Position numbers and translations under genes: made by a program. Shown here piece after piece: positions 901 through 3,242 of a stretch of 64,000 bases of DNA. This DNA is from Bradyrhizobium guangxiense (GTDB taxonomy: Bacteria; Pseudomonadota; Alphaproteobacteria; Rhizobiales; Xanthobacteraceae). The DNA lies in contig NZ_CP022219.1 in assembly GCF_004114915.1 (NCBI RefSeq), forward strand, positions 1,890,501 through 1,954,500, read 5' to 3'. The stretch's first letter is position 1. Every line of letters starts with the position of its first letter. The notes under the pieces were generated by a model. It ran no database searches and was not told the DNA's origin. It saw nothing but the letters and a program-made list of their open reading frames with translations.

Positions 901-1767
901 ATGGGTAAGCGGGCCAAACGTGGAAAGGCGGAGACGCTCGCAATACCGATGGCCGCGAGAGTTGCAATTGGCGCCGTGGCCGTCGCCGCCTTGGGCTACG
1001 GTTTGCTGTCTGGCCCGAGCGTGCAACCGACGCGGACGCCGCCTGCACGCGAAGCCCGGGCATCGTCGAGTCCAGTTTACGTGGCACCTCCGGCTCACGC
1101 ATCGGCTCCAGCCCCGGCTCCCGCTCCGATTCCGGCCCCGGCGCCTCTGGCCGAGCCACCAAAGGCCGACGCCGACGCTCCCGGAGCATTGGTTCGGCAG
1201 GTGGTTGACTACGTCAGCCACCAGACGCCGGGTACGGTGATCATCGATACCGGAAACACATTCCTCTATCTCGTCCTCAACGACAGGCAGGCGATGCGCT
1301 ACGGCATCGGTGTCGGCCGCGAAGGTTTCACATGGTCCGGCGAGCAGACTGTGGCCCGCAAGGCGGAATGGCCGGATTGGCATCCGCCTGCGGAGATGGT
1401 CTCGCGCCAGCCTTATCTGCCGCGGTTCATGGCGGGGGGGCCCGGCAATCCGCTCGGCGCGCGCGCGATGTATCTTGGCGAGACCGAGTATCGCATTCAC
1501 GGCACCAACAAGCCCGACACCATCGGCAAGCGGGTTTCGTCCGGCTGTATCCGGCTGACCAACGAGGACGTCGTCGACCTCTACGAGCGGGTGAAGGTCG
1601 GAGCGAAGGTGATCGTGCTTCCGCCAGCCGCTGCCCGCAGGCCGTCTCAGGGAGCGCCGCCTGACGCCGCGTCCCGATCGCCGGACCCGGCATCGCCGTC
1701 GAACCGGCCCGCGGCAACCAACGCGCAGATGCCATCATCCGGACCAAAGATCGCCGAGGCTCGGTAA
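901..1767 (+). CDS. L,D-transpeptidase (YkuD domain), membrane-anchored
   Basis: This 288-residue protein starts with a basic segment and one hydrophobic anchor at about residues 17-38. A Pro/Ala-rich linker (about 42-90) probably spans part of the periplasm. The YkuD domain is at about 110-240. The signature is complete: His200 in RIHGT and the catalytic Cys216 in SSGCIRLTNEDV. Such enzymes form 3-3 peptidoglycan cross-links or attach proteins to peptidoglycan. A Pro/Ser-rich tail of about 45 residues follows the domain. It stands alone, with a non-coding stretch on its 3' side. The family call is secure; the exact reaction (cross-linking or protein anchoring) is not. Confidence 0.9.
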   Translation: MGKRAKRGKAETLAIPMAARVAIGAVAVAALGYGLLSGPSVQPTRTPPAREARASSSPVYVAPPAHASAPAPAPAPIPAPAPLAEPPKADADAPGALVRQVVDYVSHQTPGTVIIDTGNTFLYLVLNDRQAMRYGIGVGREGFTWSGEQTVARKAEWPDWHPPAEMVSRQPYLPRFMAGGPGNPLGARAMYLGETEYRIHGTNKPDTIGKRVSSGCIRLTNEDVVDLYERVKVGAKVIVLPPAAARRPSQGAPPDAASRSPDPASPSNRPAATNAQMPSSGPKIAEAR

Positions 1768-1983
1768 GCCAGTCCTCCGTCCTCGCTCTGCAATTCAACT
1801 TGCGACACTTTCCCGGATCGGGCGGAGCAGGGTGATAGGGCAGGGCTTATGACTGCGTTGTTCGCAGACGCCCGCATCCAGGTGCCGCGCAGGTCATACC
1901 GGGAAAATACGGGCATCCGGGGCGACGGTCGATCGATGAACTGCACTAACTCCGACTTGCCATCCGCTTTCCCGCCGATGCCT

Positions 1984-1997
1984 TTGATCCAGGTCAA
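1984..1997. promoter_or_regulatory. FixK/FNR-type operator
   Basis: TTGATCCAGGTCAA matches the FixK2 pattern TTGA-N6-TCAA and differs by one base from a perfect TTGAT-N4-ATCAA dyad. Its centre (1990.5) is about 40 bases before a predicted start near 2030-2031, the spacing of class II FNR/FixK activation. A weak -10-like CTAAAT (2018-2023) fits the same start. The regulator encoded at 2229 has the matching recognition-helix residues. Binding is inferred. Confidence 0.55.
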
Positions 1998-2028
1998 CAG
2001 GCGCCTCTCCTGCTCAGCTAAATGAGGT

Positions 2029-2100
2029 GTCGCGTAGTCCCCGCTACGCGACCCCAACCCAAGCCGTCGGCTTCCCCAAGGGCTGGCGGCTTTCTTTTTT
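2029..2100 (+). ncRNA. Candidate small RNA (or attenuated leader) ending in a strong terminator
   Basis: Two stable hairpins lie in a gene-free gap. The first has perfect 9-bp arms, GTCGCGTAG (2029-2037) and CTACGCGAC (2044-2052). A single-stranded CCCAACCC linker follows. The second is a 13-pair stem with some G-T pairs (arms 2061-2073 and 2080-2092), then TCTTTTTT (2093-2100). That is an intrinsic terminator. With the FixK-type box at 1984-1997 placed for a start near 2030, the simplest reading is an RNA of about 70 bases made under FixK/FNR control. The alternative is a leader terminating upstream of the regulator at 2229. Expression is untested. Confidence 0.45.
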
Positions 2101-2194
2101 CCGCCTTCGTCAGTTCGGTGTCCGGCATCCATCCGGGCAACTACCTAGGTTGTCGCGAATTTGCGCTTCGTCAATCCGGTGTGGCCTTCCGTCT

Positions 2195-2212
2195 ACTTAA
2201 CTTGCGTTAAGT
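2195..2212. promoter_or_regulatory. 18-bp palindrome just upstream of the FixK-like gene
   Basis: ACTTAAC-TTGC-GTTAAGT has perfect 7-base arms. It ends 16 bases before the preferred start codon of the FixK-like gene and next to its ribosome-binding site. The inner TTAAC-N4-GTTAA has the half-site spacing of an FNR-family site but different half-site bases. A protein bound here could block transcription or translation of the gene. No binding protein is known to me. Confidence 0.45.
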
Positions 2213-2228
2213 GATCAGGGAGGCGCCC

Positions 2229-2891
2229 ATGCTGGTGAATATCAACACGCATCGACGGCCCGTCGACGGACACCTTGCCGCTCTTGCCGGTGAGCGGGTG
2301 CTTTGCAGTGAGTACAGGTATCGCAAAGGGACCGAGATCTTCGGTGAGGGCGAAGAAGCCGAATACGTCTATCAGATCACCGCGGGCGCAGTCCGGACCC
2401 ACAAGCTGCTCGCAGACGGCCGTCGCCAGATCAATGCCTTTCATCTGCCGGGCGACATGTTCGGATTCGAGAATGGCACCAGTCACCGCTTTACAGCCGA
2501 AGCCATCATCGAAACCAGCGTTCGCATCATGAGGCGGGGCAGCATCATCGAGGCAACCGAGAACCGGGACGGCGGCACAAAGAGCCTTCTGAGACTGGTC
2601 ACGCAGAACCTCCAGCACGCCGAAGACCACATGCTCCTGCTGGGACGAAAGACCGCTCAAGAGCGGGTTGCCACGTTTCTCGTCGAGATGGATGCGCGAC
2701 TGGGACATCCTCAACTTATGACCCTCCCCATGAGCCGTCGCGACATTGCGGATTATCTCGGGCTTACGCTCGAGACTGTTTCGCGCGCCTTATCCGGACT
2801 TCGGGAACAAAATCTGCTTCGCTTCGAGGGCACGACTCAAAGACGGATCGAACTGCTTCGGCGTGAAGAACTCGTGGAGCTGGGCCCATGA
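2229..2891 (+). CDS. Crp/Fnr-family regulator, FixK class (no Fe-S cysteine cluster)
   Basis: This 220-residue protein has a cyclic-nucleotide-type beta-barrel (about 30-110), a dimer helix (about 113-135) and a C-terminal winged helix. The HTH reads MSRRDIADYLGLTLETVSRALSG when continued from residue 168. Its recognition helix carries Glu182, Ser185 and Arg186, the residues by which FNR reads TTGAT. Only one cysteine lies near the N-terminus, so no FNR-type iron-sulfur cluster is expected; that makes it FixK-like, normally a second-tier regulator of low-oxygen genes. ATG at 2229 is preferred over the GTG at 2211 because AGGGAGG sits 5 bases upstream. A palindrome and a FixK-type box lie upstream. 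Which fixK paralogue it is cannot be told. Confidence 0.85.
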   Translation: MLVNINTHRRPVDGHLAALAGERVLCSEYRYRKGTEIFGEGEEAEYVYQITAGAVRTHKLLADGRRQINAFHLPGDMFGFENGTSHRFTAEAIIETSVRIMRRGSIIEATENRDGGTKSLLRLVTQNLQHAEDHMLLLGRKTAQERVATFLVEMDARLGHPQLMTLPMSRRDIADYLGLTLETVSRALSGLREQNLLRFEGTTQRRIELLRREELVELGP

Positions 2892-3242
2892 CCCTCGGTG
2901 ATGGCACCGGCTGGAGGTCCTCGAAGGATTGCGCATAGATGTCTGGAGTTTGTCAGGGAGGTAAGGACGCGACGATTTGGTGGGCCTGGTGGGTCGCTTC
3001 GTCGGCTAACAAGCGTCCCGTCCGTACGGCAAGCGGCAGCCCGGACAGCGCACGTCGTCCTTGATGACATCATGCCGGTGTTTTGCCCGACACGGCAAAC
3101 TCAATTAGCAAAATCCGCAAGCCATCGCGCTGGCAGCTAACTCATTGATCCCGTTGCTACCGGCTACTGTGCATGGGGTTGTTTTCGCGTTTTTGTGGTC
3201 GAGCGGCCCTGACGACGGCTACGTGGGCCGCCGTCCACGCCG
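2892..3242. other. Intergenic region, no supported gene
   Basis: This 351-base gap separates the FixK-like gene from the convergent chemoreceptor gene. Short open frames occur in all directions but none has a convincing ribosome-binding site or recognisable product. Around 3060-3200 the plus-strand frames give fragments such as PVFCPTRQTQLAKS and YCAWGC that recall degenerate repeat-like stretches in Bradyrhizobium intergenic DNA. That is only a memory-based suspicion. Confidence 0.4.

Follow-up and report, generated by a model that had tools for sequence, protein, structure and literature searches.

The window (the whole stretch of 64,000 nucleotides of Bradyrhizobium guangxiense DNA that was analysed) carries on its plus strand a FixK/FNR box, TTGATCCAGGTCAA (1984–1997, axis at 1990.5), a -10-like element, CTAAAT (2018–2023), and the sequence of a predicted small RNA of about 68–70 nt (2031–2098), to which the covariance model R2 described below gives a match at 2029–2098 of 78.9 bits. 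Folding and covariation divide the predicted RNA into hairpin 1 (2031–2050; stem 2031–2038/2043–2050, loop CCCC), a C-rich single-stranded linker, ACCCCAACCC (2051–2060), and hairpin 2 (2061–2100), an intrinsic terminator with CCCC in its loop, whose 13-pair stem (2061–2073/2080–2092) is followed by TCTTTTTT. Further downstream on the same strand are a conserved TACGTAGG-like element, here CTACCTAGGT (2141–2150; seen in alignments by eye), and the promoter of a regulator gene, recognized by a second FixK-type box, TTGCGCTTCGTCAA (2161–2174), and a -10-like CTTAAC (2196–2201; from sequence and alignment). The gene itself (2229–2891, ATG at 2229) encodes a FixK-class CRP/FNR regulator, as judged from alignment and from protein searches: its best PDB sequence match is FixK2 (4i2o, E 1.7e-68), and its closest NCBIfam model is FixK, at 210.8 bits and under that model's cut-off of 300. 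An earlier note on this DNA had described a two-hairpin RNA ending in a 13-pair terminator and a T6 run, next to a regulator with Glu/Ser/Arg recognition residues; both were found, the latter as the residues ETVSR.

The box TTGATCCAGGTCAA agrees with TTGAT-N4-ATCAA at 9 of the 10 specified positions and is an exact fit to the published FixK2 consensus, TTG(A/C)-N6-(T/G)CAA (PMC5582078), bearing out its earlier description as near-perfect. Taken alone it is weak evidence and unremarkable in 64 kb: sites with at most one mismatch from the box pattern number 3 in the window where 0.67 are expected, and at least 3 arise in 5 of 100 shuffles. What raises the observation above chance is the comparison with relatives, not the box alone. 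A simple sigma-70 scan of 1700–3200 found no promoter. The -10-like element that the earlier note had mentioned is present as CTAAAT and has a similar counterpart in several of the copies that precede FixK-like genes; across the 42 box-bearing copies described below the -10 region is poorly conserved (identity 0.33). The start of the RNA was placed by analogy with nosR, for which activation by FixK2 has been mapped to a box at a spacing of 40.5 (PMC5582078). Because the box axis lies at 1990.5, the same spacing predicts a start at 2031, in keeping with the earlier estimate of about 40 bases between box and RNA, and an RNA starting there would be 68–70 nt long and begin at the foot of hairpin 1. 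Across family copies the box stands at a fixed distance from hairpin 1; the start itself we infer, taking 40.5–41.5 as the class II range. The sequence 2031–2098 folds at -32.4 kcal/mol (z -5.1 against shuffles), and for 2022–2102 z reached -5.5, with none of 200 shuffles as good.

Relatives were sought with positions 2010–2105 as a DNA similarity query, the box being excluded. This search returned 7 places in 5 of 100 genomes, among them the genome of the window, which has a second copy; a match outside the genus (L006), which by eye lies in apparent coding sequence, was dropped before model building. A covariance model of the hairpins only (R1), made from six sequences of the DNA search, found 53 places at E≤0.01 in 39 of 146 genus genomes. 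Among the 52 places read together, 26 carry a box of at least 9/10 positions centred 37–40 bases before the model start and 26 have no box in position; the 53rd (L116, in G043) has no box. The box-less places include one clear family member (L010) and, ahead of a FixK-like gene in G040, what is probably a decayed copy (L050). At E≤1.3e-6, R1 found 19 places, namely the 6 training sequences and 13 new ones, and all 13 new places have a box of at least 9/10 centred 37–40 bases before the model start.

A second model (R2), again of the hairpins only, was built from 27 aligned members, 26 of them with a box. Searching 265 genus genomes with it gave 59 places in 48 genomes at E≤1e-3 and, at E≤4e-6, 46 members in 36 genomes. 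The FixK box (at least 9/10, centred 37–40 bases before the model start) is present in 42 of the 46, a count that depends partly on the box through training; because nearly all of the R2 training members bear a box, R1, which is independent of it, is the cleaner box test. The distance is 38 bases in 27 of these copies, 37 in nine, 39 in four and 40 in two. Four members (L010, L068, L069, L100) have no proper box, and the 13 weaker places, with E values from 1.7e-5 to 9e-4, all lack a box in place, one of them (L115) having a 9/10 box at 44 bases, ahead of a FixK-like gene. The covariance search that the earlier note had suggested thus yields a family whose distribution is patchy, the filters having been strict enough to make 36 of 265 genomes a minimum. 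When they were relaxed on five genomes, one more diverged copy (L212) appeared, with a 9/10 box at 38 bases; four other relaxed places read alongside it have no box.

Across the 42 boxed copies, mean pairwise identity is 0.94 in the box, 0.29 in the spacer and 0.31 in the 15 bases upstream, the last two being close to the level of unrelated sequence. Background boxes occupy 91 of 327,445 positions in loci L009–L116, a figure in which most members' own boxes are counted. For covariation we used 48 members, the 46 from R2 and two found by pattern (L131, L142), and in their alignment 95.4% of stem cells are paired. Two-sided changes occur in 12 of 19 pairs against 6.6 in shuffles, and none of 500 shuffles reaches the observed value, in an alignment that was fitted to the structure and somewhat favours it; when the partner columns of the 48 members are slid by 1–3, the signal collapses. 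All seven pairs of hairpin 1 show two-sided changes, and the RNA of the family has its own intrinsic terminator, the stem of which covaries. Lack of conservation in relatives, which the earlier note held would speak against its reading, is not what we observed: box, spacing, hairpins and terminator recur together, and this recurrence supports the FixK-type small RNA unit proposed there.

The family appears to be specific to the genus. We scanned the genome_contigs set (84,980 species, which may leave out the genome studied here) for the box combined with GCGYAG and GCYRRCRGC, a slight widening of a pattern that had caught 20 of the 42 members. The scan gave 37 matches, 14 in Bradyrhizobium records (including nanningense, japonicum, viridifuturi, huanghuaihaiense, iriomotense, liaoningense and mercantei) and 23 elsewhere. 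All 14 fit R2 at E≤1.2e-9. None of the 23 fits R2 at the matched place at E≤0.05, one of these records (L141) having an R2 match of E 0.076 at a different place. When R2 was run on 296 genomes of the bacterial family, 27 places in other genera passed E≤1e-3; no box above 7/10 was present at the 26 of them that were read, and we rejected these places as members; they look like ordinary terminators. The small RNA family is so far seen in Bradyrhizobium only.

The RNA unit was established by computation, as were its fold, its conservation and the constant spacing of its box; transcription is predicted from them. We consider it quite likely that 1984–2100 is a small-RNA gene that stands on its own and is controlled by an activator of the FixK/FNR type. 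Which activator this would be is suggested by published boxes. The nap box, TTGATCCAGATCAA, is one base different from TTGATCCAGGTCAA, and boxes of this sort are sites of FixK2 action in B. diazoefficiens (PMC5582078). Because of this near-identity and of the nosR box at 40.5, FixK2 is the likely activator, and we regard it as probably the main one. A FixJ gene (342 bits, where the cut-off is 255) lies in the genome in one cluster with a FixK-type gene that is 57% identical to the window regulator, a short response-regulator frame lying between the two. We propose that a FixK-type CRP/FNR activator, most likely FixK2 under FixLJ, would bind the box at -40.5 and recruit RNA polymerase at low oxygen; the polymerase would start at about 2031 and stop at the terminator, leaving a stable RNA of about 68 nt with its 5′ end sealed in hairpin 1.

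The small RNA could also be real and be activated mainly by FnrN or by a FixK paralogue, the neighbouring regulator included, rather than by FixK2; we think this unlikely, and it overlaps with the preferred reading. Candidates are at hand, as the genome has at least three FixK-like proteins, among them a second FixK-type paralogue 62% identical to the window regulator, as well as one FNR-like protein in which a cluster of Cys residues was seen by eye at the N-terminus, and the sites recognised by FnrN and FixK are almost identical (PMC4999443). However, no sequence feature here tells these readers apart, the published precedent for boxes of this kind in B. diazoefficiens is FixK2, and copies of the small RNA gene exist without the neighbour gene close by.

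It is improbable that the hairpins are merely a strong terminator or a REP-like structural repeat, giving an RNA without a function of its own. Terminator-like stems are indeed frequent (3 within 1.5 kb, where 1.3 are expected), and multi-copy palindromes are known in Bradyrhizobium (PMC5082802). Against this stand a box at a fixed spacing in all but four members, two-sided changes at every pair of hairpin 1, and conservation that extends beyond the terminator to hairpin 1 and the C-rich loop of that hairpin; moreover, the family occupies at most 3 places per genome (R2, 265 genus genomes), unlike REP elements.

The earlier note's main alternative was a leader terminating before the regulator gene, and the neighbouring genes bear on this directly. 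A regulator homologue follows the RNA on the same strand in 15 of the 42 boxed loci, the matched region beginning 31–152 bases after it, and likewise in the box-less member L100, whereas 27 of the 42 have no regulator homologue within about 1.5 kb downstream. Adjacency to a FixK-class gene therefore holds in the window and does not hold across the family. Three loci of one sub-group (L136, L140, L160) have a similar gene after the RNA on the opposite strand, which in the one tested encodes a CBS/BON-domain protein; in L160 a FixK-like reading frame lies about 3 kb away (by eye).

Viewed from the regulator, 44 homologous places were found, and 29 were examined after the window's own and 14 others were left out. 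An own FixK-type box stands 61–98 bases before the matched start in 27 of these 29, with or without the small RNA. The small RNA is present at 10 of the 29 loci, each with a 10/10-position box ahead of the RNA; the remaining 19 have no box of at least 9 positions at the place of the small RNA. Nine of these 19 (L183–L187, L193, L199, L202, L204) have a weaker TTGATCNNNCGCAA site 164–237 bases upstream without the R2 hairpins, and a similar sequence follows the site in this sub-group; the TTGATCNNNCGCAA sites possibly belong to another transcript. A genome whose regulator is 93% identical (G059) has no small RNA copy at E≤0.1. In G197 the small RNA is intact and the regulator's own box is missing, leaving the upstream box alone, so this regulator may have lost its own promoter. 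The FixK-like reading frame of that locus (L117 6420–7262, minus strand) extends upstream through the small RNA gene, for which reason an annotated regulator start at this place may be wrong. Another locus (L126, G000:C1:4318-4500) holds what looks like a piece of a FixK-like gene, with 79% identity across the C-terminal 61 residues. In many relatives TACGTAGG lies about 80–95 bases before the FixK-like gene; it resembles the FixJ motif GTAMGTAG (PMC4999443), and given this element the regulator gene may be under FixJ too.

A terminated leader, or attenuator, in which transcription from the box stops at 2098 and on some signal reads through into the regulator, would suit the same-strand loci and G197, where read-through may matter, but it is very improbable because a separate FixK-type box serves the regulator gene, and it was rejected as the main reading on that promoter and on the neighbour genes, most members lying elsewhere and the RNA coming and going independently of the gene (as in G059).

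The free-standing small RNA of the preferred reading would expose three C-rich single-stranded patches, namely loop 1, the linker and loop 2. Runs of at least three C are found in loop 1 in 44 of the 48 members, in the linker in 44 and in loop 2 in 35; one sub-group (for example L041, L054, L101) has no C run in loop 2. Such loops suggest, by analogy, a trans-acting RNA working like sX13 of Xanthomonas (RF02232), which is likewise highly structured with C-rich (CCCC) loops and, independently of Hfq, represses mRNAs that carry G-rich motifs close to their start codons (PMC3771888). We propose that the RNA would base-pair in trans with several mRNAs at their G-rich ribosome-binding regions, so that less of their protein is made when oxygen is low; that repression in trans works by way of the C-rich patches is, in our estimate, evenly balanced between right and wrong. 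A scan of the genome for CTTGGGGAAG, the 10-base complement of loop 2, gave 13 sites against 13 for the reversed control, and hence no excess; 2 of the 13 are the small RNA genes themselves, and this crude scan brought up no convincing target. The likeness to sX13 is one of mechanism and not of membership, because the sX13 covariance model does not match (16.6 bits against a gathering threshold of 50); sX13 has three hairpins where the RNA described here has two, and the latter has a FixK-type promoter. The relaxed Rfam matches to sX13 and sroD both fall far under gathering and were set aside as chance or convergence.

At gathering thresholds, Rfam 15 has no match in the window, in 12 member loci or in three look-alike loci (L026, L032, L035; see below). 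Low-oxygen small RNAs under CRP/FNR-type activators are a known kind, to which this Bradyrhizobium family would be a new addition. FnrS of Escherichia coli is a low-oxygen small RNA under an activator of the CRP/FNR family and represses mRNAs that are dispensable without oxygen (PMC8139620); in contrast to FnrS, of which there is no Rfam match here, the present RNA is multi-copy and its likely activator is FixK under FixLJ. PcrZ comes from an alphaproteobacterium, Rhodobacter sphaeroides; it is a small RNA of low-oxygen conditions and requires an FNR-type protein (PMC8139620), but is thought to be directly activated by PrrA, with FnrL acting perhaps indirectly, whereas here 42 of 46 members have a FixK box at what would be the class II distance. 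Validated small RNAs of Bradyrhizobium include BjsR1–BjsR10 of B. japonicum USDA 110, some with 2–4 imperfect copies (PMC5082802). Taking G197 as USDA 110, on which this comparison rests, its one strong copy (8,442,103–8,442,172, minus strand) lies at none of the printed BjsR starts, the nearest being BjsR6a at 8,446,941, 4.8 kb off; a second, weak place in G197 (261,330, E 0.05) has no box. The BjrC small RNAs of Bradyrhizobium and Rhodopseudomonas belong to the same lineage (PMC7143759), and here too there is no Rfam gathering match, though BjrC RNAs outside Rfam could still coincide with the family. The earlier note knew of no small RNA described at this locus; consistent with this, no FixK-controlled small RNA was recognised in the literature passages searched. 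Published data may already contain an unnamed start site for the small RNA.

Oxygen control in bradyrhizobia has mostly been described through proteins such as FixLJ, FixK2, RegSR and NifA, and the present family appears to point to an unstudied layer of this control in Bradyrhizobium. A systems study of microoxic B. diazoefficiens describes the characterisation of small-RNA control as poor and considers how transcript patterns differ from those of proteins (PMC6515984). An RNA under FixK control, one copy of which lies in the apparent USDA 110 genome, would be a concrete and testable candidate for this gap, and one that bears on nitrogen fixation and denitrification. Tentatively, and with slightly less confidence than doubt, we propose that the multi-copy family would be a post-transcriptional repressor arm of the FixLJ–FixK2 cascade and the first small RNA placed under direct control of a FixK protein. 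It would shut down aerobic functions under microoxia and in nodules, and as an independent module it would have been duplicated and carried to positions next to different low-oxygen genes.

Two further elements were seen in the course of this work. The window has another good FixK box, TTGACCTCGATCAA, at 285–298, with a -10-like TACGAT at 319–324; it precedes an open reading frame (388–654) for a small, probably secreted protein of 88 aa, which has no Pfam or NCBIfam match. In addition, nine loci among the weak R1 matches (L026–L028, L030–L032, L035, L043, L055) appear to hold another conserved RNA, which likewise has two hairpins and C-rich loops, most of them containing TTGAAGTCCCCAAGCTTC ... 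GCCCCGCTTCCCCCAGGCGGGG. Most of these look-alike loci also have a GAACC and CGTC pair upstream, which is reminiscent of promoters of the general-stress sigma factor (EcfG).
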